A stretch of 64,000 nucleotides of DNA from Pseudomonas sp. P8_241 (lineage in GTDB: Bacteria > Pseudomonadota > Gammaproteobacteria > Pseudomonadales > Pseudomonadaceae): NCBI RefSeq assembly GCF_034008315.1, contig NZ_CP125377.1, positions 4,462,501 through 4,526,500 on the forward strand. Direction: 5' to 3'. Both the position numbers and the translations under genes were made by a program. Shown one piece after another: positions 41,430 through 62,400 of the stretch (the first letter of the stretch is position 1; each line of letters begins with the position of its first letter). Under the pieces are notes generated by a model, which saw only the letters and a program-made list of their open reading frames with translations, did not search any database and was not told the DNA's origin.

Positions 41430-41447
41430 CATCCTTCAGTTGGACTA
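41430..41447 (+). promoter_or_regulatory. Steroid-cluster box 1 (kshA)
   Basis: CATCCTTCAGTTGGACTA, 12 of 18 matches to box 4, with the conserved CATC and GGACTA ends. About 100 bp upstream of kshA, read against the gene like the others. Confidence 0.55.
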
Positions 41448-41507
41448 GATCAAATGCGATCCGCTCTCAATCGGCGCCCATGGCCCAACAGGCGCCGTGC
41501 TTGTCGG

Positions 41508-42884
41508 TTACTGGCCGAAACGCCGGGCGGCTTCCGGGCCGAAGTCCCGGGGACTGAAACCGGGTTTGTTCAACAGATAGCCGTTGCGCTGCTCGTTGAT
41601 CAGGTTGAACGCCAGGTAACTGCCGGCATTGAGGTCGTAGTACAGGCCCACACCCGCTTGCTGGCGCTGGCTTTCATAGGCGTAGAAGTAGTTGACCATC
41701 GAGGTGCGCCACAGCTCGCCACGGTTGTCGTAGTTGTCGGCGAGCATCGGAAACCAGGTGTCCTCGTCGACATACAACTTGCGCTTGCCATACAAGTGGC
41801 GATAACCCGGTTTGAGCGTGCCTTCCAGTTCCCAGACCCGATGGCGCTCATAGCGCATGGCCTGGGGATTGATGTGGCCGGGGGTCAGCAGGTCGGCGTA
41901 CTTGAGATTGGCCGCATGCAGGCGGTAGGTGTTGTAAGGGATGTACATCTCGCGCTTGCCGACGATCTTCCAGTCGTAGCGCTGGCCGGAACCGTTGAAC
42001 AGGCGCACTTCGTCCACTGTGATCGAGCCACCGCTGCCGGGGAACGACATGTCGAAACCATAACCCGGCGACTGCCGCACGCGACGGGTGCCCGGGTCGT
42101 AACGCCAGGCCTGGCGCGGTTCGGTCTTGTCATTCCAGAACTCGGTGCCGGTATTGATCTCGCCCTTGTCCCGTTGCGGCAGCAGGGTTTCATTGAGATA
42201 GAACGACGAGTTGCCGCTGGTTTCGCCAATCTTGCCGGGCTCCAGCGACGGCGCCAGGTTGCGCGAATGCACGCGACCCCAGTTGATGTTGCCGTCCTTG
42301 AGCACATAGGCGTTATCCGAGACATATTCCTCGGTCCAGGCGCGCAAGGTAAACGTCGAAGCGTTTTTCAACAGTTCGAGGCCGCTGCGCGGTACCGGAA
42401 ACGGTGTGCCGCCGGTCTTGCCGACCACCCCTTCGCCGTCATCCACCAGACGTGCCACGCTGGCATTTTCGCGGGTGGCCTGGCAGACCGCGTCGTTGTA
42501 ACGGAAATCCCGATGCGAGGGATAGACCGGCATTTTGTAAGTGCCCGGGTACAGCTTGAACAGCGCTTTCTGGCCATCGGACAGGTAGTCGCTGTATTGC
42601 GCGATGTTCTGCGCGGTGATCACGAACAGCGGCTTTTCGTCCGGGTACGGATCCACCGGATGGTTGCCCGTGCCCTTGAAATCAACGTGGGGCGGTGCAC
42701 CCAGCCACTTGCCGCTGAACGCTGGAATGCTGCCGTCGGCATTGCCGGCCTTTTCCGCGCCCAGGCACGTCAAGTCGTTGCCCAAGCGCGGGATGTCTTC
42801 CGGTGCGGCATGTACCGTGCCGACGGCACAGCATCCCAACAACAACGTCAACGCCCAGCCAGGGGTCTGATTACTGCCGGTCAT
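41508..42884 (-). CDS. DUF1329-family exported protein
   Basis: 458 residues from ATG 42884 (AAGGAG upstream). A signal peptide (about 8-26, ALTLLLGCCAVGTVHA) and a DUF1329 domain over the rest: DVTRLGND-like start, FSGKWLGAPPHVDF, YDPGTRRVRQSPGYGFD and a C-terminal KLYVDEDTWFPMLADNYDNRG that resembles LolA/LolB-type lipoprotein carriers. DUF1329 genes often accompany degradation genes for steroids and other hydrophobic compounds, so a role in outer-membrane passage of the substrate is inferred. Confidence 0.85.
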   Translation of the reverse strand: MTGSNQTPGWALTLLLGCCAVGTVHAAPEDIPRLGNDLTCLGAEKAGNADGSIPAFSGKWLGAPPHVDFKGTGNHPVDPYPDEKPLFVITAQNIAQYSDYLSDGQKALFKLYPGTYKMPVYPSHRDFRYNDAVCQATRENASVARLVDDGEGVVGKTGGTPFPVPRSGLELLKNASTFTLRAWTEEYVSDNAYVLKDGNINWGRVHSRNLAPSLEPGKIGETSGNSSFYLNETLLPQRDKGEINTGTEFWNDKTEPRQAWRYDPGTRRVRQSPGYGFDMSFPGSGGSITVDEVRLFNGSGQRYDWKIVGKREMYIPYNTYRLHAANLKYADLLTPGHINPQAMRYERHRVWELEGTLKPGYRHLYGKRKLYVDEDTWFPMLADNYDNRGELWRTSMVNYFYAYESQRQQAGVGLYYDLNAGSYLAFNLINEQRNGYLLNKPGFSPRDFGPEAARRFGQ

Positions 42885-42944
42885 TTTTATTCTCCTTGGA
42901 TTCGACAACGGTTGCCCAGTATCGACAGCCCAGGAACCCGGCAG

Positions 42945-42962
42945 CATCGTCCGCACGGACTA
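42945..42962 (+). promoter_or_regulatory. Steroid-cluster box 2 (DUF1329 gene)
   Basis: CATCGTCCGCACGGACTA with palindromic GTCCG-CA-CGGAC core, 61 bp upstream of the DUF1329 start. Confidence 0.7.
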
Positions 42963-42985
42963 ACGCATTTTGCCGCAGCCGCGCC

Positions 42986-44188
42986 TCACAGCCGGACCGC
43001 AGCCGGCTGCGGCGCCCCCAGCGCCACCACGCTGTTGAGCATGATCCGCACCAGCTCGGTCTGGCGCCGTACGCCGGTCTTGGAAAAGATCGAACGCAGG
43101 TGCGCCCGCGCGGTGTTGCGGCGGATATTGAGCAGTTCCGAGGCTTCCTCCAACGACAGACCGTTGGCCAGTTCCAGGGCCAGTGCGGTTTCCGCCGGAG
43201 TCAGGTTGTACAGTTGCGACGTCAACACCGTACTCACCAGCGACTTGCTCACCGCATCGCGCACATACACCACCACCGTCGGCTTGCCGTTGCCTTCGAG
43301 CAGATCCCGGGAGGGAATCAACTCCACCACAACCCCCAGGCTGACCTGTCCGGAAGGACGGGAAATCGACGTCGCCTCGGCCACCTGCACGCCCCTGGCG
43401 GCGCCCTGCCTGGCACGCTGAAAGGCGTTGCGCACAAGCCGCGACAACTCGCGATTGTCACTGGGGTAGGTTGCCTCCAGCCGGCCGCCCACCACCTTGA
43501 GGCCGTCCTGACTGTCGAGAATCTCCCGGGCCACGGGATTGAGTTGCACCACGCTGCCGTTTTCATCAAGCACGATGGTCGCCACCGCGAGGCGGCTGAT
43601 CGTCTGCGAATACAGACTGCCGAGGGACTCACTGCGGTCGAGCTGCGAATACATGTGCAAGGTCCGGCGCAGGTGCGGCAACAACATGGCGCACATGGCC
43701 CGCTCGGTGTCACTGAAAGCTGGCTGACCCTGTGGTCGATTGATCCGAAAGCGCACCGTGCCGCCATCCGGCATGCGGATATCGGCACCGAGCATGTGGT
43801 AGCAATCGTAGGGTTGGCAGTACAGCAGGTAAAACGCCGAACTGGCCCACTCGGCCTCGCTCATCAGTTCATCGATGGTGAACACGGTGTCGGTGGGCAA
43901 GCCTTCGAACAGGGTGGATTTGGCGTAGTAGGCATAATGGTTAATCCCGCCCTGCCCCAGTTCGACATCACCGGCAACCACCATCGGTGACAACAGCGGC
44001 TCGTCCTGGACCCGCAGGATCAGGGTAACGAAATTGGCCTTGAACAATGCGCGGATCTCGCGCAACGAGTCGCTCAGGCAGCGAGTATTCATCGCCGCTT
44101 CGTAGATGTTGCCGATAATCCGTTCGTACTCGGCCAGCTCCAGGCCCATTTGCGCCAGGACCTGTGCATTGGGCATGTGACTTTGCAT
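42986..44188 (-). CDS. tesR: LuxR-type regulator, TeiR/TesR-like
   Basis: 400 residues from ATG 44188, which has GGGGA at proper spacing (ATG 44194 would add two). A long N-terminal sensory part (about 1-320, with a PAS-like segment near 185-290, VATIVLDENGSVVQLNPVAREIL) and a LuxR HTH at 335-395 (LTPAETALALELANGLSLEEASELLNI, then RAHLRSIFSKTGV). Length and architecture match TeiR/TesR of Comamonas testosteroni, the activator of testosterone degradation. It lies inside the steroid cluster, 75 bp after the thiolase gene. It is the best candidate to bind the repeated 18-bp box. Confidence 0.82.
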   Translation of the reverse strand: MQSHMPNAQVLAQMGLELAEYERIIGNIYEAAMNTRCLSDSLREIRALFKANFVTLILRVQDEPLLSPMVVAGDVELGQGGINHYAYYAKSTLFEGLPTDTVFTIDELMSEAEWASSAFYLLYCQPYDCYHMLGADIRMPDGGTVRFRINRPQGQPAFSDTERAMCAMLLPHLRRTLHMYSQLDRSESLGSLYSQTISRLAVATIVLDENGSVVQLNPVAREILDSQDGLKVVGGRLEATYPSDNRELSRLVRNAFQRARQGAARGVQVAEATSISRPSGQVSLGVVVELIPSRDLLEGNGKPTVVVYVRDAVSKSLVSTVLTSQLYNLTPAETALALELANGLSLEEASELLNIRRNTARAHLRSIFSKTGVRRQTELVRIMLNSVVALGAPQPAAVRL

Positions 44189-44263
44189 AACCATTCCCCA
44201 GCAGCGGGCCCGACCAGCGGGCCCCCATGGATTGAATCGCGACGGCGCGGCGCTCCGCTCGCC

Positions 44264-45472
44264 TCACGGCAGTTCGAACAGTCCTGCGGCGCCCATGCCG
44301 CCACCGATGCACATGGCAATCACCACATAGCGCACACCGCGACGTCGACCTTCCAGCAAGGCGTGGCCGACCATCCGCGCACCGGACATGCCGAAGGGGT
44401 GCCCGATGGCAATCGCTCCGCCATTGACGTTCAGGCGATCCGCCGGGATCTGCAGTGCATCGCGGCAATGCAACACCTGGCTGGCGAAGGCCTCGTTGAT
44501 CTCCCACAGACCGATGTCCGCTACCCCAAGGCCAAAGCGCTTGAGCAGCTTGGGAATCGCAATCACCGGGCCGATACCCATTTCCTCTGGCGCGCAGCCG
44601 CCCACGGCAATGCCGCGGTAGATGCCCAGCGGTGTCAATCCGCGGCGCTTGGCCTCGGCGCGGCTCATCAGCAGGCTGGCCGCGGCGCCGTCGGAGAATT
44701 GCGAGGCGTTGCCGGCGGTGACGAACTCGCCCTGTGCGACCCATTTGCCGTCCTTCCACACCGGTTTCAATCCGGCCAGGTCTTCCAGGCGCGTATTGGG
44801 CCGGTTGCACTCGTCACGCAGGACCTGCACGCGTTCATGGCCATTGGGCTGGCCATCGGCGGCAAACAGCAGCTTGTCGACGCTCAGGCCGACGATTTCG
44901 TCGTCGAACAGTCCGTCGCGCTGGGCGGCAGCGGTGCGCAGTTGGCTTTGCAGCGAATACTCATCCTGGGCGGCGCGGCTGATGCCATAGCGGCGCGAGA
45001 CGATTTCGGCGGTTTCGATCATCGGGATATAGGCGCTGGGCATCACCTGCAGCACGGCTTCGGACTGCGCGCGGAAGCTGTTCTTGTGTTTGGTCTGGGT
45101 CAGCGACAGCGACTCCACGCCGCCGCCGATGGCGATGCTCATCTCGCCGGTCATGATGCCCTTGGCCGCCACGCCGATACTCATCAGGCCCGAGGCGCAC
45201 ATCCGGTCCAGGGCCATGCCCGCCACGCTGTCCGGCAAACCGCCGGTGTAGGCGCAGAGTCGACCGATGTTGTAGGCCTGGGTGCCCTGCTGCACCGCTG
45301 CGCCCATGATCACATCCTCGACGTCAGCCGGCTCGATGCCGGCGCGCTCGACCACCGCGCGCACCACATGGCCGCCCAGCACCGGGGCCTCGGTATCGTT
45401 GAACGATCCGCGAAACGACTTGGCCAACGCGGTACGGGCGGTGGCGACGATGACAACTTCATTCAGGTCCAT
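44264..45472 (-). CDS. Acetyl-CoA acyltransferase (thiolase)
   Basis: 402 residues. Thiolytic removal of acetyl-CoA or propionyl-CoA. Nucleophilic Cys in [11 protein letters not shown] (about residue 91), His in [19 protein letters not shown], and second Cys in [14 protein letters not shown]. It is a general AtoB/FadI-type thiolase, less like FadA5/FadA6 than the one at 48124, so it may serve a different chain length. Third gene of the ipdF operon, 7 bp after the MaoC gene. Confidence 0.9.
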
Positions 45473-45479
45473 GGGGAAC

Positions 45480-45950
45480 TCACTCGGAAATGGGGTTGAA
45501 GGTGTAGCGGCTGATGGTGTCGATCACGCAGCCCGGGCGCGCCTGGCCCTCGACTTCCATGGTCATGCGCACCACCAGTTGCACGGCGTCGCCCAGTGTT
45601 TCGCAGCGGATGATCTGGCCGCTGCCGCGCACTCGCGAATCGACCTTGACCGGTGCCGGGAAGCGCACCCGGTCGCTGCCGTAGTTGACGCCCATGGCCA
45701 TGTTTTCAATGGTCATCAGCTGCGGCATGAACAGATTGGCCAGGGACTGGGTCAGGTAACCGTGGGCAATGCAGGCGCCAAACGGACCGCTGGCGGCGCG
45801 CACCGGATCGACATGAATCCACTGGTGATCACTGGTGGCTTCGGCGAACAGATCGATGCGTTGCTGGTCGATGGTCACCCATTCGGTATGGCCCAGGTCC
45901 AGGCCCTCGGCCGCCAGCAAGGCCTGGGCACTGCTGAAAACGTGACTCAT
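45480..45950 (-). CDS. MaoC-like (R)-enoyl-CoA hydratase
   Basis: 156 residues from ATG 45950. Single hot-dog domain with the hydratase motif [33 protein letters not shown] (about 35-67), carrying the catalytic Asp and His. It hydrates a trans-2-enoyl-CoA. It sits between IpdF and a thiolase, so it probably acts in beta-oxidation of a steroid-ring or side-chain acyl-CoA. Confidence 0.9.
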
Positions 45951-45960
45951 GAGCGAGCCC

Positions 45961-46746
45961 TCACGCTTGTTGGGAACTGACGGACAGCACTTCGCCGACC
46001 ATGTAGGAGGCATAGTCACTGGCCAGGAACATCATCACGTTGGCCACTTCCCAGACTTCAGCGGCGCGACCGAACGCCTCGCGCCCGGCGAGGCTTTCGA
46101 GCAACTCTTCGCTGGAGGCTTTCTTGAGGAAATCGTGCAGCGCAATCGAGGGCGATACCGCGTTGATGCGCACGCCGAACTCGGCGGCTTCCAGTGCGCT
46201 GCAGCGGGTCAGCGCCATCACCCCGGCCTTGGCGGCGGCGTAATGGGCCTGTTCCTTCTGGGCCCGCCAACCGAGCACCGAGGCGTTGTTGACGATGGCC
46301 CCGGCGCCGCGACGCTGCATGTGCGGCAGCATCGCCCGGGTCATGCGGAAGGTGCCGGTCAAGGTCACATCCAGCACCCGCAGCCACTCTTCGTCGCTCA
46401 TCTCAACCACGCGCTTTTGACCACCCAAGCCCGCGTTGTTGATCAGCACATCGACCCCGCCCAACGCCTCTTCGGCGGCAGCCACCAGGGCCTGGACTTC
46501 GTCTTCGACGGTGACATTGCACAGCTGGCCATAAATCGCCTGCAAACCGGTCTCGGCCTTGAGGCGCTCCACCGCCTCTTCGAGGCGCCGCGCATGCACA
46601 TCGGAAATCATCAGCGCCCGACAGCCTTCCTCAGCACTGCGGCGAGCCGCCGAATAACCGATACCGGCACCGGCAGCAGCGGTAATCAACACCGACTTGC
46701 CGGCCAGCAATTGATGGCCGGGAACATAAGGGGGGGCTTGTTTCAC
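45961..46746 (-). CDS. ipdF: SDR, 5-hydroxy-HIP-CoA dehydrogenase-like
   Basis: 261 residues from GTG 46746, chosen for GGAGG eight bases upstream and because it gives the IpdF length (about 262); the open frame itself continues further up. NAD-binding SVLITAAAGAGIGYSAARR, NNAG (LINNAGLGGQ), catalytic Ser in NNASVLGWRAQ and YAAAK. The run AKAGVMALTRCSALEAAE and VSPSIA...FGRAAEVWEVA closely recall mycobacterial IpdF, which oxidises the 5-hydroxyl of the rings-C/D intermediate. First gene of an operon with maoC and a thiolase; box 3 lies 60 bp upstream. Confidence 0.85.
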   Translation of the reverse strand: MKQAPPYVPGHQLLAGKSVLITAAAGAGIGYSAARRSAEEGCRALMISDVHARRLEEAVERLKAETGLQAIYGQLCNVTVEDEVQALVAAAEEALGGVDVLINNAGLGGQKRVVEMSDEEWLRVLDVTLTGTFRMTRAMLPHMQRRGAGAIVNNASVLGWRAQKEQAHYAAAKAGVMALTRCSALEAAEFGVRINAVSPSIALHDFLKKASSEELLESLAGREAFGRAAEVWEVANVMMFLASDYASYMVGEVLSVSSQQA

Positions 46747-46805
46747 AGCGTCTACCTCCGAAGAAATCAATACGCTGTAGTTGTACGGAGGGAGCGATGC
46801 CGGCG

Positions 46806-46823
46806 CATCGTCAAAATGGGGTA
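46806..46823 (+). promoter_or_regulatory. Steroid-cluster box 3 (ipdF operon)
   Basis: CATCGTCAAAATGGGGTA, a weaker match (perfect CATCGTC half, degenerate second half), 60 bp upstream of the ipdF start. Confidence 0.5.
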
Positions 46824-46923: not shown

Positions 46924-47026
46924 TTGTAGGAGCGAGCTTGCTCGCGAAAAACCTGAGAGCACCGCGGGGTGTCAGGATTCCCGCGTCATCGTTGGCCTCC
47001 ATCGCGAGCAAGCTCGCTCCTACAGG
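46924..47026. repeat. REPIN A, inverted near-identical partner of REPIN B
   Basis: 103 bp with arms GTAGGAGCGAGCTTGCTCGC. Its reverse complement matches 59536-59639 with only about three differences inside the body, including the 55-bp spacer. It lies between the 3' end of the hsaC operon and the ipdF promoter. Confidence 0.9.
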
Positions 47027-47124
47027 CTTTTCCAAGTGACCCGCTGTAAGAGCGGAACCGTAAGTGGCCGTTACCGCAGGAATGGATATTTACTCGGTCA
47101 AAATCCAGGTCGGCTGTCAGGCCG

Positions 47125-47151
47125 CCATCGCTGGCAAGCCAGCTCCTACAG
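47125..47151. repeat. Single REP
   Basis: CCATCGCTGGCAAGCCAGCT plus CCTACAG: one palindromic REP unit just downstream of the SDR gene of the hsaC operon. Confidence 0.75.
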
Positions 47152-52273: not shown

Positions 52274-53382
52274 AGGGGCTCTCCAATACTGACGGGTTGG
52301 TTCGAGGGATGGGTCTGGCTGCGTGTCAGGAGCGCGTCCAGGCATTGCTGGGCCTCACTGGCGATGCCTTCGATGACTTCACGACAACTGAGCAATTCAC
52401 CGATGGCCGCCGCCACCTGGCCGCTGGACAGGATCCCCTCGTCCGGGGCGCCATCGACCATCGAGCGCTGCAACAACACCGGCTGGTTGGCGGCCATCAC
52501 CACTTGCGACAGTTGCGAGGGGTCTTCACGCAATGCCCGGAAAAATACCGAGGCCATGTGCCCCAGGCTCATGCCGGTTTGCTGCTTCCACTGCCAGGCG
52601 CTGCCCAGGGCAATGCGCAGGCGACCGAAGGCGCCCGCCTGCTCCAGACGATTGATGAAGCGGTTTTCGATCATGCGGTGGCGCATGCCATCGACCGCGG
52701 TGGTCACGCGCACCTGCTGCGGATCGTTGACCTTCAAGTAATGTTCCAGTGTCGCGGCCGGCGTCGGCGATTCGCGGGTCATCAGAAATCGCGTGCCCAT
52801 GGCGATGCCGACACCACCGGCAGCCAGCACCGAGGCCAGCCCTCGGCCAGTGGAATATCCTCCGGCGGCGATCACCGGCACCTTGACCGCCGCCAGCACC
52901 TGGGGCAGCAGGATCGAGCTGGGCACACCGCCGGTATGGCCGCCGCCCTCGCCGCCCTGGATGGTGATCAGGTCGGCGCCCAACTCCACCGCCTTGAGCG
53001 CATGCTTCAAGGCGCCGACGGTGGGAATGCACAACACCTTGGCTGCCTTGAAGCGGGCGATCGTTTGTTTGTCGGGGCCGCGTCCGTAGCTCACGGCGCG
53101 CAAGCGGTACTTGATCGCCAGGTCGACGCACTGCGCGGCGTTGTCCTGGAACATATGGAAATTGAGCCCGAAATTGCTGCCGCCGGTGGCATCGATGACC
53201 TTGCGGATCTCACCTTCCAGCGCATCGGCCGTAATGGTCGCACCGGCCAGGAAACCGAAGCCCCCTGCCTGTGTCGTGGCGATCACCAGGTTGGCGTCGG
53301 CGACCCAGCCCATGGCGGTTTGCACAATCGGGTAACGGCAACCGAGGGCCTCGGTCAGCGGCGTCTCGAGCCAGCGGTTCAT
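52270..53382 (-). CDS. ipdC: FMN-dependent dehydrogenase of ring C/D breakdown (nitronate-monooxygenase-like)
   Basis: 370 residues of the 2-nitropropane-dioxygenase fold: PIVQTAMGWVADANLVIATTQAGGFGFL at the start, TIQGGEGGGHTGGVPSSILLPQ and AAGGYSTGRGLASVLAAGGVGIAMGTRFLMT as the FMN-phosphate region. IpdC introduces the double bond that precedes ring opening in HIP-CoA breakdown; it is often mis-annotated as nitronate monooxygenase. Its start overlaps the upstream enoyl-CoA hydratase stop (ATGA). Confidence 0.87.
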   Translation of the reverse strand: MNRWLETPLTEALGCRYPIVQTAMGWVADANLVIATTQAGGFGFLAGATITADALEGEIRKVIDATGGSNFGLNFHMFQDNAAQCVDLAIKYRLRAVSYGRGPDKQTIARFKAAKVLCIPTVGALKHALKAVELGADLITIQGGEGGGHTGGVPSSILLPQVLAAVKVPVIAAGGYSTGRGLASVLAAGGVGIAMGTRFLMTRESPTPAATLEHYLKVNDPQQVRVTTAVDGMRHRMIENRFINRLEQAGAFGRLRIALGSAWQWKQQTGMSLGHMASVFFRALREDPSQLSQVVMAANQPVLLQRSMVDGAPDEGILSSGQVAAAIGELLSCREVIEGIASEAQQCLDALLTRSQTHPSNQPVSIGEPL

Positions 53383-54287
53383 TGGTTTTTTTCCTCGGCC
53401 TGCTTGTTGGCCCGCGCCATGCCCTTGGCGTCGAAACCACCGAGTTTGTCGCCGGACAACAGCTCGTTATGGGCATGGGCAAAGTGGTGCCAGGCGAACA
53501 CGGCATCCATTGCCGTGCGCTTGCCTTGCAGGTCCTCGACGTGGTTGATCGCCTGCTTGGTCAGGGCCAGGCCCATGCGTGGCTGGCGGGCGATACCGGC
53601 GGCCAGGGCATAGGTCGTCGACTCCAGTTCCTCGCGTGATACCAGACGGTTGACCATGCCCACCTGCCAGGCCCGGTTGGCGCTCATGCGGTCACCGGTG
53701 AACAGGAATTCCTTGGCGATGCGCGGGTTCATTTCATAGGGATGGGCAAAATACTCCACCCCCGGAATGCCCATGCGCACCACCGGGTCCTGGAAGAAGG
53801 CGTCGTCGCTGGCGACGATCAGATCGCACACCCAGGCCAGCATCAGCCCTCCCGCGACACACGCGCCATGGACCATGGCGATGGTCGGCTTGGGCAATTC
53901 ACGCCAGCGTCGGCACATGCCCAGGTACACCTCCTGCTCGCGGGCGTACAGCTGCTCGCCACCAGGTTTATTGGTGTGATCCCACCACAGGTGCGCGCGC
54001 TCGAACGGCTTGTCGATATCACGCCCCGGGGTGCCGATATCGTGGCCCGCCGAGAAATGCTTGCCGTTGCCGCGCAGGACGATGACCTTGACGCTGTCGT
54101 CATTCACCGCCTGGCGAAAGCAGGCATCCAGGGCATAGGTCATCTGCGAGTTTTGCGCGTTGTTGAAGGTCGGCCGGTTCAGCGTCAGCGTGGCGATGCC
54201 CTCGGCCACGCTGTACAGCACCGGGGTGTCCGTCTCGTAGACGGCGTTGTCCTGGCGGACGATGAATTCACTGTCGCTGCTGTGCAT
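53379..54287 (-). CDS. Enoyl-CoA hydratase family protein
   Basis: 302 residues, longer than EchA20. Crotonase loops VLRGNGKHFSAGHDIGTPG and HGACVAGGLMLAWVCDLIVAS, followed by a helical extension EYFAHPYEMNPRIAKEFLFTGDRM. Strong ribosome site GAGGAGG. It lies between ipdB and ipdC. It probably hydrates an enoyl-CoA from the opened rings; the substrate is unknown. Confidence 0.87.
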   Translation of the reverse strand: MHSSDSEFIVRQDNAVYETDTPVLYSVAEGIATLTLNRPTFNNAQNSQMTYALDACFRQAVNDDSVKVIVLRGNGKHFSAGHDIGTPGRDIDKPFERAHLWWDHTNKPGGEQLYAREQEVYLGMCRRWRELPKPTIAMVHGACVAGGLMLAWVCDLIVASDDAFFQDPVVRMGIPGVEYFAHPYEMNPRIAKEFLFTGDRMSANRAWQVGMVNRLVSREELESTTYALAAGIARQPRMGLALTKQAINHVEDLQGKRTAMDAVFAWHHFAHAHNELLSGDKLGGFDAKGMARANKQAEEKNQ

Positions 54288-54302
54288 GCTCGCCTCCTCG
54301 TC

Positions 54303-55100
54303 TCAGACCGTACGGATGCCGGGCGGGTTGCCCTTGATCGCGGTGGCTCGGTAATCATGGGGGTCGAGTCGGCGGATCAGGGCCAACTGCTCAGGGGTGG
54401 GGTGCACGGTTTCGTGCAACTGTGCGGACTTGAGCAACGGGAAACCGGTGTTTTCCTGGACCCGCTCGAAACTCACGCCGGGGTGCAACGAACGCACCTG
54501 CACCGCACGCTCAGGGCCATTGAAATCCATGACGCACAGGTCGCTGACCACGCAATGGATGTCCATCAAGTCACGACGTGCGCCCTCGGGCCAGCGCTCG
54601 GCCTTGAAGCCGACACCGGACACCATGTCCACTTCGCCGCTGACGAACACGCGGGTGTTGTGGCTGGGCACAAAGAACGAGTTGAGGTGGTTGATGCTGT
54701 TGCCGGGCAAGCCGCGCACGCCAAGGATCGCGGTCCTGGGCTTTTGATAGTCGCCCACGCAGGACAAGTTGGTCTGGCCCCAGCGGTCGATCTGGGTCGG
54801 GCCGATCATCGCGTGACGGCGACCGCCCCAGACGCACTCGAAGACCCGCTCAAAGGACATGTAACCCGAGTAACGCGGCACATAGTCGCCACGCGGGCCC
54901 AGCGGGATCGGTTCTTCGACCAGGAACGCCTCGCTGTCGGTCATCAGCAGTTCCGGGCTGTGGGTCAGTTTGGCCAGGCTGGCGCCCAGGCGCGGGATCA
55001 CGCCCAGACCTGAGGCGATCAGCTCGCCATTGCCGCGCCAGGCCTCGGAGGCCGCGACGATCATCAGTTCAGCGAGGGTGAAATCACAGGTTGCAGACAT
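54303..55100 (-). CDS. ipdB: Ring C hydrolase, beta subunit
   Basis: 265 residues of the class I CoA-transferase fold: ELMIVAASEAWRGNGELIASGLGVIPRLGA, VFECVWGGRRHAMIGPTQIDRWGQTN and GLPGNSINHLNSFFVPSHNTRVFV. IpdAB, despite its CoA-transferase fold, hydrolyses the C ring of COCHEA-CoA. It follows ipdA by 12 bp in the operon. The Comamonas equivalents are ScdL1L2. Confidence 0.9.
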   Translation of the reverse strand: MSATCDFTLAELMIVAASEAWRGNGELIASGLGVIPRLGASLAKLTHSPELLMTDSEAFLVEEPIPLGPRGDYVPRYSGYMSFERVFECVWGGRRHAMIGPTQIDRWGQTNLSCVGDYQKPRTAILGVRGLPGNSINHLNSFFVPSHNTRVFVSGEVDMVSGVGFKAERWPEGARRDLMDIHCVVSDLCVMDFNGPERAVQVRSLHPGVSFERVQENTGFPLLKSAQLHETVHPTPEQLALIRRLDPHDYRATAIKGNPPGIRTV

Positions 55101-55112
55101 AGTCGCTAATCC

Positions 55113-55988
55113 TCAGAACACGGGAAGGGGCAAGACGCCCATGGATTCGGCACCGCCGTTCTGTGCCTGATAGGCCTGCTCGCCACCGGCGACGTAGGTC
55201 TGCACATAGTCCTGCCAGCCGTTGTCCGCCTGGCTGCTGGCGACATAGGTTTTCAGGTGCTTGAGGTCCCAGCCGTAGTCGGGAGCGCAGAGTGTCGGAT
55301 GCGCACCGAGGGGGGCGTGCACCACACCGGTCACCAGATAGCGTTCAAAGGTATTGAAGCGGGCCTGATCGGCAGTCAGTTCCAGGCGCTCTTCAAGACG
55401 TTCGCAGGAGACAAAGCACTGCTTGGCGGCGCGAGCGAACAGGTGATCGAAATAAGGGTCCGGCCCGGTCATCAGGCAATTGCCCAGGCGGTCGGCGACG
55501 TTGGCATGCAGGAACGCCACGTCGAGGTTGAGGGCCGGCATCGCCAGCAGCACCTCTCCATCGGCATAGGGCGACTGGATGGTCTTGATTTCAGGATTGA
55601 GCCGCGTCACATCAGTGGCCAGGCCACAACGGGTCGGCAGGAACGGCAAGCGCATGCCGGCGGCGCGCAGGCCCCACTGGAACATGCCTTCGTCGAGCTC
55701 CATCAGCTCCAGTTCGCCGGCTTCGCGGGCCTTGCGGTAGTAGGGTTCCAGCGGAATGGCATCAAGGGTGGCGAAACCGAACACCAGCTTCTTGACCTTG
55801 CCGGCGGCGCAAAGCATGCCGACTTCAGGGCCGCCGTAGGCGACCACGGTCAGGTCCTTGACCGGTGAGCGCAGGATCTCGCGCACGATGGCCATCGGCT
55901 TGCGCCGCGGACCCCAGCCGCCGAAACCGATGGTCATGCCATCGCGCAGTTGAGCGACCGCATCGGCCGCTGTCAGTTGTTTGTTCAT
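55113..55988 (-). CDS. ipdA: Ring C hydrolase, alpha subunit
   Basis: 291 residues, equal to mycobacterial IpdA. CoA-transferase-fold motifs: DGMTIGFGGWGPRRKPMAIVREI, VVAYGGPEVGMLCAAGKV and LMELDEGMFQWGLRAAGMRLPFLPTRCGL, the last containing the likely catalytic Glu. Forms a heteromer with IpdB. It follows the extradiol dioxygenase gene by 12 bp. Confidence 0.9.
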   Translation of the reverse strand: MNKQLTAADAVAQLRDGMTIGFGGWGPRRKPMAIVREILRSPVKDLTVVAYGGPEVGMLCAAGKVKKLVFGFATLDAIPLEPYYRKAREAGELELMELDEGMFQWGLRAAGMRLPFLPTRCGLATDVTRLNPEIKTIQSPYADGEVLLAMPALNLDVAFLHANVADRLGNCLMTGPDPYFDHLFARAAKQCFVSCERLEERLELTADQARFNTFERYLVTGVVHAPLGAHPTLCAPDYGWDLKHLKTYVASSQADNGWQDYVQTYVAGGEQAYQAQNGGAESMGVLPLPVF

Positions 55989-56000
55989 GATGATTTTTCC

Positions 56001-56891
56001 TTACTGTTGGCCGACCGAAAAGTCGTGCCCCCAAATGCTCACGCGAGTGAATTCGAATGCCGAGTGCTCGGCCCAGTCGACCTGCAATCCGCCAAAGCCG
56101 TATTCCAGATCGAAACCGGACGGCGTCTTCATGTAGAAACTGGTCATGCGATCGTTCAGGTGCTGTCCGAGGGTGGCCGAGAGGGTCACGTCATGGGCGT
56201 GCAAACGGTCATGGGCACGACCGACTTCGGTCATCGAATCGACCTCCACCATCACGTGCACGCAACCTGACGGCACCGGGTACTCGGCCAGGGCCAGACT
56301 GTGGTGGCGGGCGTTCTGGCAATGCAGGAAGTGAATGCGGATAGGCGGCGCCGACGGGTCGGGGCGGAAGTTGAAAATGTCCGACAGCTTGAAGCCCAGC
56401 ACATCCTTGGCGAAAGCCAGAGTGGCGTCGAAATTCGGTGCCGGCAGCACCGTGTGGCCCAGCCCCATGTCGCCAGTGATGAAACGCGGCACGCCTTGAG
56501 GCGAAACAAACGGCAGACAGTCGGAGCGGTGGCCCCAGCTCAGTTCATGGCAGTTGCCGGAGGGATCGGTGACCTTGACCAGCGCCTGTACGCCGCGCTG
56601 GTCGATCTCGGCGGCAGAGCCCGGCTGCCATTCGATGCCGGCCGCGCTCAGGTGCTCGAGTGCGGCCCGGAATGCCGGCTCGTTGGCCAGCTCCCAACCG
56701 GACGCCAGATAGCGCGCCTCGCTGCCTTCGACGATCAGCATGCGAAACGGACGCTCGTCCATTTTCACGTACAAGCCACCGCCCGGCGCTGACTGTACCT
56801 GCATGCCCAGCACGTCTTCGGCGTAACGCTGCCAATGGCTGAGGTTTTCGATCTGCGAGACGAAATAGCTCAAACCGCGAATGTCGATCAT
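56001..56891 (-). CDS. hsaC: Extradiol dioxygenase for 3,4-DHSA (HsaC/TesB-like)
   Basis: 296 residues, a two-domain type I extradiol (VOC) dioxygenase. Iron ligands H146 (GLGHTVL), H212 (GCVHVMVEV) and E263 (FDLEYGFGG); active-site His196/197 (ARHHSLAL) and Tyr253 match BphC. It opens the aromatised ring A of 3,4-dihydroxy-9,10-secoandrostatriene-dione. First gene of a ten-gene operon down to 47185; box 4 lies 66 bp upstream. Confidence 0.9.
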   Translation of the reverse strand: MIDIRGLSYFVSQIENLSHWQRYAEDVLGMQVQSAPGGGLYVKMDERPFRMLIVEGSEARYLASGWELANEPAFRAALEHLSAAGIEWQPGSAAEIDQRGVQALVKVTDPSGNCHELSWGHRSDCLPFVSPQGVPRFITGDMGLGHTVLPAPNFDATLAFAKDVLGFKLSDIFNFRPDPSAPPIRIHFLHCQNARHHSLALAEYPVPSGCVHVMVEVDSMTEVGRAHDRLHAHDVTLSATLGQHLNDRMTSFYMKTPSGFDLEYGFGGLQVDWAEHSAFEFTRVSIWGHDFSVGQQ

Positions 56892-56956
56892 GCCTGGGTC
56901 CTCGTTGGCTGAATGGCTTACGTGGCAGGCATTGTGCTAAGCGCCACCTTGCACTT

Positions 56957-56974
56957 CATCGTCCGTTGAGACTA
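56957..56974 (+). promoter_or_regulatory. Steroid-cluster box 4 (hsaC operon)
   Basis: CATCGTCCGTTGAGACTA, 66 bp upstream of hsaC. One mismatch in the GTCC-N4-GGAC palindrome. Confidence 0.7.
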
Positions 56975-56980
56975 AGCACC

Positions 56981-57050: not shown

Positions 57051-57076
57051 CGCGAAGCCCCGATGACGTGGTGCCC

Positions 57077-57094
57077 TAGTCCGTTTTAATGATT
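57077..57094 (-). promoter_or_regulatory. Steroid-cluster box 7 (dehydrogenase pair)
   Basis: Reads AATCATTAAAACGGACTA on the minus strand: the ACGGACTA half is perfect and ATC-N-T is kept in the other half. It lies 61 bp upstream of ATG 57155, oriented as expected for a plus-strand gene. Confidence 0.45.
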
Positions 57095-57154
57095 CGAGCA
57101 CCGTTGCCAACGCCTCAGACTGGCGCATCCATCCGCTTTGCAGAGACAACCCCC

Positions 57155-58327
57155 ATGGAGTTCGCTTTTACCGAAGAACACCTGATGATTCGCGACAGTG
57201 CCGAGCGCTTTCTCGCCCAGGTCAGTGACACACATGCCGTGCGCGCTGCCATGAATCGCCCTGACGCGCATGACCCCGAGGTCTGGCGGCGAATCGGCCA
57301 GGAGTTGTACTGGCCGGCGCTGATGGTGCCCGAGCGTTTTGGTGGTATGGGCCTGGGGTTTGTCGAGCTGGCGATCCTGCTGGAACAAAGTGGCCGCTAC
57401 CTGCTCGGTTCGCCGCTTTTCGCTACCGCGTGCCTGGCCACCCCAGCGCTGTTGCTGGGACACAACGAGGCCGTGCAGACGTATTGGCTGGGGGCGATTG
57501 CCGGCGGCGAAACCCGCGCCACCCTGGCCTTCGCCAGTGTTCCGGGACTGGAGGCTTGCAGCGTGCAAGCCGTGGCCGCGCCACGCCCGGGAGGCTGGAC
57601 CCTTGACGGCCAGTACGCACAAGTCATCGATGGCGCCTCGGCCGACCTGCTGATCGTCGCCGCCCGCGCCCCCGGTACTCAGGGCCAACAGGGCATCAGC
57701 CTGTTCGTCTTGCCGGGCGATACGCCGGGCGTGATCCGCACCCCCCTGGCCACCCTCGACCAGACCCGCCGCCTGGCACGCATCGAACTGCATCAGGTGC
57801 AGGTCAGCGAGGCGCAGCTGCTTTGCGGCCCCGAACAAGGCTGGACAGTGCTGCGCGACACCTTGTTGATCGCCGCCATCGGCCTTGCCGCCGAGCAGAC
57901 CGGCGGCGCACAACAGGCCCTGGACCTGACCCTGGCGTACATCGCCGAACGCCGGCAATTCAAACGCACCATTGCCAGCTTCCAGGCGATCAAGCACCGC
58001 TGCGCCGACATGATGCTGCAAGTCGAATGCGCCCGGTCGGCGGCCTACTATGCCGCTTGCGTGGCCCAGGAACGCCTCGACCCGAATGGCGATGTGGCGG
58101 TGACCGAGGAGCTTGAGCAGGCCGCCGCCACCGCGAAGATCCATGCCAGCGAGGCGTTTTTCCACTGCGCCGCCGAGTCGATCCAGCTGCACGGCGGCGT
58201 CGGCTTCACCTGGGAATACGACCCACACCTGTACTTCAAACGTGCCCGCGCCGGCGAGCAGCTGTTGGGCAACCCGGCATTGCACCGCGAGCGTCTGGCC
58301 GCGCATCTTTTGGGAGAACAAGCATGA
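57155..58327 (+). CDS. Acyl-CoA dehydrogenase subunit
   Basis: 390 residues from ATG 57155. ACAD fold with MEFAFTEEHLMIRDSAERFL, EQTGGAQQALDLTLAYIAERRQFKRTIASFQAIKHRCADM and LHGGVGFTWEYDPHLYFKRA; no C-terminal EIQR segment. It overlaps the next ACAD gene by four bases. The two together look like the unequal subunits of a steroid acyl-CoA dehydrogenase (FadE26/27 or FadE28/29 type), perhaps for the side chain. Confidence 0.87.
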   Translation: MEFAFTEEHLMIRDSAERFLAQVSDTHAVRAAMNRPDAHDPEVWRRIGQELYWPALMVPERFGGMGLGFVELAILLEQSGRYLLGSPLFATACLATPALLLGHNEAVQTYWLGAIAGGETRATLAFASVPGLEACSVQAVAAPRPGGWTLDGQYAQVIDGASADLLIVAARAPGTQGQQGISLFVLPGDTPGVIRTPLATLDQTRRLARIELHQVQVSEAQLLCGPEQGWTVLRDTLLIAAIGLAAEQTGGAQQALDLTLAYIAERRQFKRTIASFQAIKHRCADMMLQVECARSAAYYAACVAQERLDPNGDVAVTEELEQAAATAKIHASEAFFHCAAESIQLHGGVGFTWEYDPHLYFKRARAGEQLLGNPALHRERLAAHLLGEQA

Positions 58328-59517
58328 AAATCGGTTTCAGTCGTGCCGACGAAGCGTTCCGCGAAGAGGTCGCCCGGTGGATGGCCGAGCACCTGAGCGG
58401 CGCGTTCGCGCCCTTGCGCTTTCGCGGGGGACCGGGGGATGAACACAGCTTTCCCGAAGAACGCAAAGCCTGGGAACGCGAGTTGGCGGCCGGTGGCTGG
58501 ATCGGTGTCGGCTGGTCGAAAGAACACGGCGGACGCGGACTGTCGATCAGCCAGCAGGTCATCTTCCACGAGGAATATGCCCGTGCCGGTGGCCCCGGAC
58601 GCATGGGCCATATCGGCGAAGGCCTGGTCGGCCCGACCCTCGCCGCCTTCGGTACCCCGTCCCAGCAGCAGCGCCTGTTGCCCGGCATTCTCGATGGCAG
58701 CCAGTTCTGGTGCCAGGGCTACTCGGAACCGGGCGCGGGTTCCGACCTTGCCAATGTACAGACTCGGGCGAAACTCGATGCCACGGGCGAGCACTGGCTG
58801 ATCAGCGGGCAAAAGGTCTGGACCTCCCTGGCCCACGAGGCCGACTGGTGTTTCGTACTGGCGCGCACCGAACCTGGCAGCCAAGGGCATCACGGTTTGT
58901 CGTTCCTGCTGGTGCCGATGGCCCAGGACAGCATCCGCGTGCAACCGATCCAGCAACTGACCGGCACCAGTGAATTCAACGAAGTGTTCTTCGACCAGAC
59001 CGTCACCCATGCTGACAACCTGATCGGCCAACCGGGTGATGGCTGGAAGATCGCCATGGCGCTGCTGGGTTTTGAGCGTGGCGTATCGACGCTGGGCCAG
59101 CAGATGCAGTTCCACAACGAACTCGACGAAATCATCCGTATCGCCCGCGCCAACGGTGCTGCCCGCGATCCATTGCTGCGCCAGCGCATCGCCCAGGCCT
59201 GGGCCGGTCTCAAGGTATTGCGCTACAACTCGCTGCGTATGCTTTCAGGTCCGCAAGACGGCAACCTGGGGCGTGAAGCGATGATCTACAAACTGGCCTG
59301 GTCCACCTGGCACAGCGACCTGGGAAAACTGGCCATGGACGTGCTGGGCGATGCCGGGGAAATCCTCGACGCCGCGCCCTACCAGCTCAGCCGCCTGCAG
59401 TCGCTGTTTCTGTTCACCCGCTCGGATACCATTTACGGTGGCAGTAACGAGATTCAGCGCAATGTGATTGCCGAGCGGGCCCTGGGTATGCCCCGAGAGC
59501 CGCGGGTGAGCGCATGA
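58324..59517 (+). CDS. Acyl-CoA dehydrogenase subunit
   Basis: 397 residues. GYSEPGAGSDLANVQTRAKL, SGQKVWTSLAHEADW and C-terminal TIYGGSNEIQRNVIAERALG. Gly-Gly replaces the Glu-Gly of classical ACADs at the catalytic end. Its ATG overlaps the stop of the preceding subunit (ATGA), so the two are made in equal amounts. Transcribed away from the hsaC operon and closed by REPIN B. Confidence 0.88.
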   Translation: MKIGFSRADEAFREEVARWMAEHLSGAFAPLRFRGGPGDEHSFPEERKAWERELAAGGWIGVGWSKEHGGRGLSISQQVIFHEEYARAGGPGRMGHIGEGLVGPTLAAFGTPSQQQRLLPGILDGSQFWCQGYSEPGAGSDLANVQTRAKLDATGEHWLISGQKVWTSLAHEADWCFVLARTEPGSQGHHGLSFLLVPMAQDSIRVQPIQQLTGTSEFNEVFFDQTVTHADNLIGQPGDGWKIAMALLGFERGVSTLGQQMQFHNELDEIIRIARANGAARDPLLRQRIAQAWAGLKVLRYNSLRMLSGPQDGNLGREAMIYKLAWSTWHSDLGKLAMDVLGDAGEILDAAPYQLSRLQSLFLFTRSDTIYGGSNEIQRNVIAERALGMPREPRVSA

Positions 59518-59535
59518 TCTGAACACCATCAAAAA

Positions 59536-59639
59536 CCTGTAGGAGCGAGCTTGCTCGCGATGGAGGTCAACGATGACGCGGGAATCCTGACACCTCGCGG
59601 TGCTCTCAGGTTTATCGCGAGCAAGCTCGCTCCTACAGA
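59536..59639. repeat. REPIN B, inverted near-identical partner of REPIN A
   Basis: CCTGTAGGAGCGAGCTTGCT through CAAGCTCGCTCCTACAGA; the reverse complement of REPIN A (46924-47026) with about three differences. It lies just after the dehydrogenase pair. Confidence 0.9.
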
Positions 59640-59705
59640 GCCCGCCGCCATCGCGCCATCCATGGCCGGGGCCGGCCGGCCTGGTCGGCAGCTCGTGCAC
59701 ATTTC

Positions 59706-59960: not shown

Positions 59961-60073
59961 CGTTCGGTACGTGTCAAGGTACCTGTCGTCTTGCTCCCAC
60001 AGGTAACGCGTACAGCCGCAAAACCCAGGCTAGCTGGAAGGTGCGCGCCAAAAGGGGTATACCGTCGCGCAAG

Positions 60074-60103
60074 CAAAAGGGCGGCACCTGCACGGGCCGC
60101 CCT
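60074..60103 (-). terminator. Terminator of the SnoaL-SDR-SDR operon
   Basis: AGGGCGGC (60078-60085) pairs with GCCGCCCT (60096-60103); on the minus strand the stem is followed by TTTGCTT, directly after the SnoaL-type gene. Confidence 0.75.
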
Positions 60104-60109
60104 GATTAT

Positions 60110-60745
60110 TCAACGCACGCGAATCTTCGGATCATCCGCCCCACGGCGCAGATTTTTGAGGAAGCCTTCCAACGGCGCCGGTTCGGCAATCTGCGGCAAG
60201 GCGTCCTTGTCCGGACGCTGCGCCCAGAACGCATCCCACGACGGAAACAGCTCATGGAAGCTGCCAGCGTACGGCTCGCGCCCCGGCCAGCGCATTTTCA
60301 GGCCGCCGATCGGAGGTTTGTTCAGGTCAGTCGCGTACCAGTAGCACGGCAAGCGGCGACGGAAACACCAGCGCCCGTCGATCCGCTCGTAGTCGTCCCA
60401 GTACAGCATCTGCATGATCACCCACTCCGGCCCGGTCTCATGTTCGTTCTTGGAATAGACCACGCCGGTGGCGTGATCGGCATCGCTGAACTCGATGATG
60501 TGCTGGCCCAGGTGATGAGACGTGCCATGGAACTGCTTGCGCATGGTTTCGTCCAGCCACGCCTTGAGGTGCGCGCGACCGCTCTTGTCGCGGCCCACGC
60601 GCACGTCCGGGGCGAAGCAGTTGGCCATGGCATCCATGTCACGCATGTCCAGCGCCAGGGCGTACTTGCCCGCCAGTTGGCGGATCGCGTCCAGCGACTC
60701 CAGGCGGTCGATACGCTCAAGCAGCGCGGCGGATTCCAGGCCCAT
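60110..60745 (-). CDS. SnoaL/NTF2-fold protein, possible hydroxysteroid dehydratase or isomerase
   Basis: 211 residues: an SnoaL_4-type domain (about 10-150, LESLDAIRQLAGKYALALDMRDMDAMANCFAPDVRVGRD, and GTSHHLGQHIIEF) with an extra C-terminal arm (about 150-211). In bile-acid degraders 7-alpha-dehydratases (BaiE, Hsh2) and ketosteroid isomerases share this fold, with Tyr, Asp and His in the cavity (candidates Y29, D36, H79/H80). The start overlaps the stop of the SDR gene upstream by one base. The steroid role is inferred from operon and fold. Confidence 0.72.
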   Translation of the reverse strand: MGLESAALLERIDRLESLDAIRQLAGKYALALDMRDMDAMANCFAPDVRVGRDKSGRAHLKAWLDETMRKQFHGTSHHLGQHIIEFSDADHATGVVYSKNEHETGPEWVIMQMLYWDDYERIDGRWCFRRRLPCYWYATDLNKPPIGGLKMRWPGREPYAGSFHELFPSWDAFWAQRPDKDALPQIAEPAPLEGFLKNLRRGADDPKIRVR

Positions 60746-61518
60746 CAGTCGAGCACCGTATACAGGTCCGAACCGCGTCCGCCGTCCACCGCCAGGCTGG
60801 CGCCGGTGACATACGAAGCCTCATCGCTGGCCAGGAACAGGATGGCGTTGGCCAACTCAACCGGCAGGCCGACCCGTTTCATCGGGATGACTTTTTCAGT
60901 GTTGCTGCGAGTCTTGGCGTCGCCGAGCATGCCGGCAGTGGCCGGGGTGTCGACCACGCCTGGGATGATCACGTTGCAACGAATATTGTTCGGTGCACCT
61001 TCGCTGGCCGCCGCCCGGCTGAAGTTGATCACAGCCGCCTTGGCCGCCGAGTAGCCGGCCATCCACGCCGTGCCGAACAGGCCGCAGATCGACGCGATGT
61101 TGACGATCGAACCACCGCCCTGCGCTTTCATCAACTGCATCGCGGTGCGGGTGCCCCAGAAAGTGCCGTCGACGGTGGTGGCGAAGTTGGCGTGCCAGTC
61201 GGCGGTGGTCATCGTGTCGATGCCGCCCCAGGTGTAGGCCATCGCGTTGTTGACCAGAATGTCCAGGCGACCGTGGCGTTGCGCGGTGGCTTGCAGCGCA
61301 CCGACGTAGGCCTGTTCGTCGCTGACATCGGCCACGGCGATCTCGGCCCGCCCGCCCTGGGCACGGATTTTTTCCTGCACGCCTTGCAACGGCTCGATGC
61401 GACGCCCGCACAACACCACCGTTGCACCTTCTTCGGCGAAGCGCAGTGCAGTGGCTTCGCCGATGCCGGAACCGGCGCCGGTGACGAAGGCGATTTTTCC
61501 TTGTAAACGCTTGCTCAT
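60745..61518 (-). CDS. SDR, possible hydroxysteroid dehydrogenase
   Basis: 257 residues from ATG 61518 (AGGGAGT upstream). Nucleotide loop [20 protein letters not shown], basic CGRR after strand 2 (NADP preference possible), NNAMAY in place of NNAG, catalytic Ser in [10 protein letters not shown] and YSAAKAA. It sits between an SnoaL-type gene and another SDR gene in one operon, which suggests oxidation of a ring hydroxyl on the steroid. Confidence 0.85.
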
Positions 61519-61532
61519 GGGTGACTCCCTGA

Positions 61533-62267
61533 TCAGATAAAGGCCATGCCGCCGTTGACGGCAACGTTCTGCCCGGTCATGAAACTGGCGTCTTCGCTGG
61601 CCAGGAACACCGCGACCCGGGCGATTTCGTCGGTCTCGCACATGCGCCCCAGCGGCACATTCTTGAGCAGCGCTTCCATGTATTCGTCAGGGATGCCGGC
61701 CATCATCGGCGTGTTGGTCGGCCCCGGCACCAGGGTGTTGACGCGGATGCCGCTGGCCGCCAGCTCACGGGCGATCGAACGGGTCAGGCCCATCACCCCG
61801 GCTTTCGAAGCGCAATAGTGGCTTGGACCTTCACCGGTCAGCGCAGCGGTGCTGGAGAGGTTGATGATCGCGCCCTTGCGGCCCCCCTTGACCATCAGTT
61901 TTGCGCCCTCACGACAGCACAGAAAGGTGCCACCCATATTCACGCCGATCACCCGCGCCCAGCTCTCGTCCGGGGTTTCGAGGAAGCTGTCCAGTCCGCC
62001 CACGCCGGCGTTGTTGACCAGGATGTCGAGGCCGCCGAAGTGCTGCTCGGTCTGCCCCATCGCATCGGCTACGGAGGCGCTGTCACCGACGTTGCAGGAC
62101 AGGGCCAGGACCTTGTCGCCCAAGTCTGCCAGGCTCTCGGCCAGTGCCGCCTGGTTGAGGTCGACAGCTACCACTTTGGCGCCTTCGGCGACAAAACCAC
62201 GCACGATGGCCTGGCCCATGCCCTGTGCCGCACCGGTCACAAAGGCCACTTTGTTGAGTAACTTCAT
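61533..62267 (-). CDS. SDR, possible hydroxysteroid dehydrogenase
   Basis: 244 residues, classical FabG-like [23 protein letters not shown], acidic VAVDLN after strand 2 (NAD preference), NNAGVGG, Ser in [12 protein letters not shown] and YCASKAG. First gene of the three-gene minus-strand operon, 14 bp before the second SDR. Box 5 lies 90 bp upstream. Likely acts on a 7- or 12-hydroxyl or similar group before ring breakdown. Confidence 0.85.
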
Positions 62268-62356
62268 AGCAATCTCCGAATGTGCAAATACGCTGCGCCC
62301 CCTGCCCTTGCAGTGGCGCCGTCCCCTGCATGATTAGCGGCAGGCACCCGGGCACA

Positions 62357-62374
62357 CATCGTCCGATGGGACTA
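62357..62374 (+). promoter_or_regulatory. Steroid-cluster box 5 (SDR operon)
   Basis: CATCGTCCGATGGGACTA with perfect GTCC-N4-GGAC palindrome, 90 bp upstream of the SDR start. Confidence 0.72.
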
Positions 62375-62382
62375 CCGCCGCG

Positions 62383-62400
62383 TGGTCTGAACGGACGATG
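62383..62400 (-). promoter_or_regulatory. Steroid-cluster box 6 (hsaD)
   Basis: On the minus strand CATCGTCCGTTCAGACCA, 16 of 18 equal to box 4, facing box 5 with eight bases between. It is oriented for hsaD, 127 bp downstream. Confidence 0.72.

Follow-up and report, generated by a model that had tools for sequence, protein, structure and literature searches.

The steroid island and its recurring box

The DNA analysed here, referred to as the window, is a stretch of 64,000 nucleotides from Pseudomonas sp. P8_241, corresponding to positions 4462501-4526500 of a single-contig genome of 6,392,675 bases (NZ_CP125377.1). It reaches into an island of genes for steroid degradation by the 9,10-seco pathway, which spans approximately 4502789 to 4604365 of the genome and in which a box of 18 base pairs (bp), TAGTCY-N4-RGACGATG in gene direction, recurs upstream of many of the genes. 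The annotation, which covers part of the island genes, includes KshA, two DUF1329 proteins, DUF1302, HsaC-, HsaD-, HsaA-, HsaF- and HsaG-like proteins and a CoA transferase, along with acyl-CoA dehydrogenases, SDRs, FAD-binding proteins, an MMPL transporter and MFS transporters. The regulators encoded are a TetR protein, an AraC protein and two LuxR-type proteins; judged by the regulator sequence, the closest named relatives belong to Pseudomonas. Since the HsaC, HsaD and HsaA matches fall below the NCBIfam cut-offs, "-like" is meant literally. Gene starts were taken from a simple open reading frame (ORF) caller and corrected by eye for hsaD, the DUF1329 gene, the SDR gene of the regulator operon and the acyl-CoA dehydrogenase gene.

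The first-pass annotation had listed seven boxes in the window, and all seven are present where it placed them, each followed in gene direction by a -10-like hexamer. Five lie on the minus strand. Box 1 (41430-41447, TAGTCCAACTGAAGGATG in gene direction) precedes kshA (40289-41329, minus strand, with Rieske and KshA_C domains), and the hexamer AATGAT starts 20 bp after it (41404-41409). Box 2 (42945-42962, TAGTCCGTGCGGACGATG) is located just 3' of the gene for regulator 1 and upstream of a DUF1329 gene (41508-42884, minus strand), with GATACT after 21 bp (42918-42923). The SDR and thiolase genes (44264-46746, minus strand) of a predicted operon that ends with regulator 1 are preceded by box 3 (46806-46823, TACCCCATTTTGACGATG), followed after 20 bp by TACAAC (46780-46785). 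Inverted repeats resembling repetitive extragenic palindromes (46925-47150; 23 nucleotides, 100% and 83% complementary) are found between this box and the end of the hsaC operon. Box 4 (56957-56974, TAGTCTCAACGGACGATG), with CACAAT after 20 bp (56931-56936), precedes the hsaC operon, whose first genes (53379-56891, minus strand) encode an HsaC-like dioxygenase, a CoA transferase that is IpdA-like by name only, a neighbour taken from its position as the second subunit, and an enoyl-CoA hydratase. Box 5 (62357-62374, TAGTCCCATCGGACGATG) precedes an operon (60110-62267, minus strand) with an SDR family gene (61533-62267) and a SnoaL-like gene (60110-60745), and AATCAT follows it after 21 bp (62330-62335). 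On the plus strand, box 6 (62383-62400, TGGTCTGAACGGACGATG) stands before a gene for an hsaD-like hydrolase (62527-63360) with CAGCAT after 20 bp (62421-62426), and box 7 (57077-57094, TAGTCCGTTTTAATGATT) before an acyl-CoA dehydrogenase pair (57155-59517) with CAGACT after 21 bp (57116-57121).

The distances to the start codons agree with the earlier account, being about 60 bp for boxes 2, 3 and 7, 65 bp for box 4, 89 bp for box 5, 100 bp for kshA and 126 bp for hsaD. Boxes 1, 3 and 7 are weaker, as had been noted, yet they look genuine: boxes 1 and 7 are accompanied by a -10 hexamer at the usual place, and the sequence of box 3 is the same in 14 related loci (L069-L082), about 2.63 kb upstream of the regulator. 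The box is an inverted repeat with the fully symmetric form CATCGTC-N6-GACGATG, of which the GACGATG half is better conserved. The GTCC-N4-GGAC palindrome ascribed to the strong copies is exact only in boxes 2 and 5, whereas boxes 4 and 6 carry AGAC.

With up to 3 mismatches to CATCGTCCGNNNGGACTA, 10 matches were found in the window compared to 1.52 expected from shuffled sequences, and none of 100 shuffles reached 10. Five of the seven boxes are among them (41430 with 3 mismatches, 42945 with 0, 56957 with 1, 62357 with 0 and 62383 with 2), while those at 46806 and 57077 exceed 3 mismatches. In the genome as a whole the excess is confined to close matches; with up to 3 mismatches there are 201 matches as against 318 for the reversed pattern used as control. 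Nine have at most 1 mismatch, and these comprise 7 island promoter boxes, one match within an island coding sequence (window 54247-54264, plus strand, genome 4516747; antisense in the enoyl-CoA hydratase gene), which we judge to be due to chance, and one at 4622265 in an ORF 23 kb past the island. The exact pattern CATCGTCNNNNNRGACTA (CATCGTC-N5-RGACTA) occurs 12 times in the 6.39-Mb genome as compared to 0 for the reversed control, and all 12 occurrences are located within 117 kb, between 4505445 and 4622282. Eleven of them are located before genes of the island, and in two cases the match extends over the ORF start if the longest possible frame is assumed. The remaining one, again at 4622265 inside the ORF, is probably a chance match.

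Altogether, 13 strong boxes are spread over approximately 94 kb (genome 4505445, 4519457, 4524857, 4524883, 4533024, 4533422, 4546245, 4559616, 4559676, 4563615, 4578007, 4593816 and 4599053) and continue for about 73 kb beyond the window. Weaker boxes are found at 4503930, 4509306 and 4519577 (boxes 1, 3 and 7), 4551288, 4588096 and 4599021. We scanned the genome with a full model of box, spacer and -10 hexamer, in which 150 of 5198 first-look candidates were scored. The scatter over unrelated genes that the first-pass annotation had suggested looking for was not seen: all 8 matches with an expect value (E) below 0.05 are inside the island, and the top-scoring ones elsewhere are located at 4622265 (E 0.27), 23 kb past the island, and at 29312 (E 0.52).

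Promoter geometry and conservation across genera

The main clue to the function of the box is its distance to the -10 hexamer, which extends the earlier description, where the hexamer was not mentioned. Requiring A at position 2 and T at position 6, we found a -10-like hexamer starting 20 or 21 bp past the box in 30 of 30 nonredundant boxes from relatives; for other pairs of adjacent offsets the rule was met 1.88 times on average and at most 7 times. These 30 boxes derive from 80 named loci with 113 exact boxes, 106 of them unique, from which near-duplicates, with at least 65% likeness in the 60 bases that follow, had been removed. In the genome studied here, the hexamer is present at 20-21 bp for 16 of 18 boxes (13 strong, 5 weak), the misses being 4578007 and 4509306, which is box 3, where TACAAC lacks the T at position 6. 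The fixed distance places the box at about -50 to -33, with its centre near -41.5, the position of a class II activator site. It reaches the -35 region by approximately 3 bp and stops short of the -10 element. At a spacing of 17 bp the -35 hexamer is poor, with 1-3 of 6 matches to TTGACA in the 30 promoters. These features are as expected for a class II promoter that depends on an activator, with start sites as predicted from the sequence.

Sites of LuxR/NarL-type class II activators are located near -41.5. The box resembles them in being an inverted repeat whose half-sites are spaced by about one turn of the helix, in reaching a weak -35 element and in its fixed distance to the -10 element. 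To our knowledge, half-sites of the form T(A/C)GTCY and RGACGATG have not been described for any LuxR-type protein.

Boxes were also seen before orthologous genes in other orders and classes, in line with the conservation that had been looked for. They precede hsaC, hsaA, hsaD or kshA in Burkholderiales, on a Vibrio plasmid, in Sphingobium and in one further genome of another class (G329, which belongs to the same phylum). For hsaC this applies to G595, G042, G378, G929, G915, Caballeronia, B. arboris, G614 and G907, and to G329 and G046, where the box has no -10 hexamer fitting the rule; for hsaA, to the Vibrio alfacsensis plasmid, Caballeronia, B. arboris, G595, G042, G929, G614, G1020 and G329; and for kshA, to Sphingobium and Cupriavidus, among others. 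Upstream of hsaC, TAGTCTCAAYGGACGATG is also found in G266, G595, G042, G378, G929 and G915, and the hsaD box of G595 is identical to box 6. The Vibrio plasmid (NZ_CP140104.1, L149), whose host strain was isolated from the gut of a fish, carries a steroid-type degradation cluster with boxes.

For scoring we used a matrix built from 30 boxes of the named loci and 13 of the genome itself. Among the upstream regions of orthologs, those with a best score below 10 being dropped before counting, 93 boxes scored at least 10, of which 81 had a -10 hexamer. The numbers were 67 and 57 without the genome itself and G266, and 52 and 44 when the genus genomes G042 and G046 were also excluded and the rows recounted. 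Reversed-sequence controls gave 0-2 boxes per ortholog group at a score of at least 13. The well-covered nonredundant groups are HsaC (13/15), HsaA (15/18), HsaD (7/8), KshA (23/27, 20 of the boxes with a -10 hexamer), the BNR operon (19/21), SDR82 (10/15), flavin reductase (4/5), SDR66 (5/5) and ALDH (6/6). DUF1329b (12/25) and MFS92 (7/12) belong to the groups with few or no boxes. The acyl-CoA dehydrogenase ortholog is preceded by TAGTCCGTTTCGATGATT in L085 (score 11.1) and by TAGTCCGTTTCAATGATT in L102 (score 4.9).

Individual promoters tend to keep their own variant of the box. At the seven variable positions, boxes of orthologous promoters from different genomes were 61.7% alike, compared to 47.7% when labels were shuffled within genomes (0 of 1000 shuffles). 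The corresponding values were 31.2 vs 28.6% for the spacer (0 of 1000 shuffles) and 28.3 vs 27.0% for the 25 bases before the box (22 of 1000). Upstream regions scoring below 10, boxes without a -10 hexamer and the BNR operon were left out of this comparison. The likeness of the boxes remained at 60.5 vs 47.0% without G266, G046 and G614, and at 57.6 vs 47.9% without the genome itself and G266. Shared ancestry accounts for part of it; the contrast between box and flanks suggests function, and the partial retention of variants across genera suggests graded responses. The hypothesis that symmetric CATCGTC-N6-GACGATG sites mark divergent promoters was rejected as a general rule, since 0 of 7 such sites had gene starts on both sides according to the simple gene caller; the ECH114/SDR113 pair does fit a divergent arrangement around a symmetric box.

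Two LuxR-type regulators and their co-occurrence with the box

Regulator 1 (P0001, 402 amino acids; 42986-44194, minus strand), the proposed binder, has a LuxR-type helix-turn-helix (HTH) at residues 330-384 and, in the predicted model, a GAF-like N-terminal domain that may sense a ligand; the structure match spans residues 1-189 only. Regulator 2 (genome 4546327-4547562, L010 327-1562) is 59% identical to it, and the HTHs of the two are nearly the same (PF00196, 24.5 and 26.5 bits vs a cut-off of 23.5). Both are encoded within the 9,10-seco steroid cluster with KshA and HsaC-, HsaD-, HsaA-, HsaF- and HsaG-like genes. Among 150 genomes of the family to which G378 belongs, 7 have homologs 39-49% identical to regulator 2.

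The predicted operons ending in the regulator genes carry degenerate, conserved boxes. For regulator 1 this is box 3. The operon of regulator 2 has a weak box before it (4551288) and a strong one just past the regulator gene (4546245), and the degenerate box before this operon mostly reads TAAGCCATTTGGACGATG or TAGGCCATTTGGACGATG. The box before the regulator-operon SDR was found by position; the ortholog-upstream count for this gene (0/22) used a start that is too early. A box scoring 20.5-28.8 is located just past the regulator gene in 66 of 80 loci. The degenerate boxes suggest weak positive autoregulation. New here are the second regulator, the degenerate boxes at both regulator operons and the promoter-specific variants kept across genera.

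We examined 298 genomes of the genus, with a threshold of E<=1e-40 for the regulator, so that weaker homologs count as absent. At least 4 boxes were present in 51 of the 53 genomes with a TesR-like LuxR protein, compared to none of the 245 genomes without. Further genus genomes (G046, G277 and G204; L036-L039, L048) have a second type of hsa-like cluster with the same box and a regulator 35-38% identical (38% in G046). In viral contigs, the pattern gave 10 matches, none with a relative of the regulator.

Several other features were observed in the island. Type VI secretion-like genes (genome 4537444-4544306 and 4563738-4573447; L009, L010, L011) encode a VgrG-like protein, DUF4123, a class 3 lipase and a VasX_N protein, beside which are several ORFs of about 395 residues with similar starts, one with a weak DUF6708 match. 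A gene for a methyl-accepting chemotaxis protein (genome 4595802-4597460, L012 9805-11460), possibly a steroid chemoreceptor, adjoins an aldehyde dehydrogenase gene with the palindrome CCTCGTCCGATTGGACGAGG in its promoter.

A predicted operator for TesR/TeiR-like activators

TesR/TeiR was reportedly published in 2004 and is said to be needed for steroid degradation. In excerpts of three papers it is presented as a protein of the LuxR type that positively regulates steroid degradation in Comamonas testosteroni, and TeiR is characterised as a polar membrane protein that acts as a kinase (PMC6678751, PMC8700777, PMC8399759). Based on the sequence comparisons, we propose that LuxR activators of the TesR/TeiR-like kind, of which this genome encodes two paralogs, bind to the box and switch on the 9,10-seco steroid pathway, and consider this reading quite probable (about 0.86). 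The link to the LuxR proteins is drawn because of their co-occurrence with the box, the absence of TetR homologs (E<=1e-30) from 39 of the 51 box-rich genomes and the activator-type geometry. This supports the proposal of the first-pass annotation that the box is the operator of the LuxR protein, with two amendments: the second regulator is an equal candidate for the binder, and the sites look to be of the activator type near -41.5. A LuxR dimer centred near -41.5 to -42.5, with the GACGATG half facing the promoter and extending into the -35 region, would interact with RNA polymerase in the manner of a class II activator and compensate for the poor -35 element. Differences between boxes would then give graded responses, and the regulator operons would be weakly and positively autoregulated through their degenerate boxes.

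A number of results weigh against this proposal. Co-occurrence is partly automatic, since regulator and boxes are in one cluster able to move as a unit, and TetR was the sole other regulator compared across genomes. Few or no boxes precede the AMP ligase (0/5), OYE (0/8), ACAD62 (3/9), KstD118 (4/9) and DUF1302 (6/22) genes, and 14 of the 80 loci have none within 400 bp past the regulator (L105, L107, L109-L116, L132, L134, L143, L147). The full model reached E values down to 0.045 in six regulator-free genomes; G042, G595, G358 and G329 stand out from these controls (E 2e-4 to 1e-3), while G378, G614, G592, G466, G441, G623, G348, G397 and G225 are slightly or not clear of them. One-mismatch counts in 20 distant or odd genomes were uninformative, several not being set apart from the reversed control (for example 14 vs 16 in G042, 18 vs 21 in G595). 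The distant cases therefore rest on the position of the boxes before orthologs. In G225, a 36%-identical regulator is encoded next to an ORF that by eye starts like kshA (C21 88001-108000, L040), but the genome lacks any exact box, and in the 20 kb covered there no box reached a score of 13 (best 12.0), nor did a crude word count reveal another recurrent motif; this regulator may use another site. Finally, Pfam (E<=0.01) gave HTH families only, with no evident kinase domain in either regulator, and hydropathy no evident membrane helix (top 19-residue means 1.19 and 1.23), unlike the membrane kinase described as TeiR, with which they are compared by description. The structure comparison of residues 1-189 had no kinase among the 50 matches listed, which is not evidence of absence.

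It is improbable that the box belongs to another regulator of the cluster, such as TetR or AraC. TetR sites are typically palindromic, like the box, both genes are situated at the island end (TetR 4601443-4602078, AraC 4603325-4604365), and TetR homologs are enriched among box-rich genomes (12/51 vs 10/247, Fisher p 3.2e-5). However, they are found in no more than these 12 and in 10 genomes with fewer boxes, the related loci contain no TetR and a single AraC match (E<=1e-60, with upstream region), and the site is mostly upstream of -35 and short of -10. Just as improbable is that the LuxR proteins bind the box and act mainly as repressors. Excerpts of PMC6678751 and PMC8700777 mention a C. testosteroni protein of the LuxR type that represses 3,17beta-HSD, but the position near -41.5, the poor -35 element and the description of TesR/TeiR as a positive regulator argue for activation. 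Still less likely, the box could be a core promoter or alternative sigma-factor element, as the fixed spacing to -10 and a conserved GACGATG reaching -35 might suggest; its conserved part runs to about -50 as an inverted repeat, close matches are island-confined and track the LuxR gene, and no sigma factor is among the annotated island genes. Chance or repeat-derived likeness, for which the lack of excess at up to 3 mismatches would speak, is hardly credible in view of the fixed spacing, the cross-genus conservation, the excess over shuffles in the window and the 12 vs 0 exact matches.

The proposed LuxR operator agrees with known systems in several respects. As for TesR/TeiR, the regulators are LuxR-type HTH proteins encoded in a 9,10-seco steroid cluster. 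Their number recalls Pseudomonas stutzeri Chol1, which has two TeiR-like genes, the deletion of one of which delays growth on cholate (unpublished data cited in an excerpt of PMC8399759). One operator common to several steroid operons is also known for KstR/KstR2 and EdcR, but these are repressor sites, and the EdcR palindrome overlaps the -10 element and differs in sequence (excerpts of PMC6678751, PMC8700777). In the excerpts of PMC6678751, PMC8399759, PMC12239570, PMC6895838, PMC8700777, PMC12882949 and PMC10637631 we found no operator for TesR/TeiR, the primary Comamonas papers lying outside this set, so that an earlier description is possible. Nor was one found in the titles and abstract openings of the literature matches listed, and the matches listed for two pieces of the box sequence were unrelated.

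A wider reading, to which we would give slightly less than even odds, is that of a single steroid operator code throughout the Pseudomonadota. At least two GAF-LuxR activators per genome could share it, each promoter's variant being kept across orders so that the steps respond in a set order, with the weak boxes of the regulator operons as a feedback threshold. One symmetric box could fire a divergent enoyl-CoA hydratase/SDR pair, from Pseudomonas to the Vibrio plasmid.

The regulatory mechanisms of bile-acid-degrading Proteobacteria are described as largely unknown in the excerpt of a 2021 review (PMC8399759). If binding is confirmed, the box would provide the target site that has so far been lacking for a regulator described some twenty years ago. 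A defined site with an exact promoter geometry makes direct binding, the identity of the inducer and membership of the regulon testable. The box also helps to list steroid regulons from genome sequences, and the promoters that carry it are possible parts for steroid biosensors.

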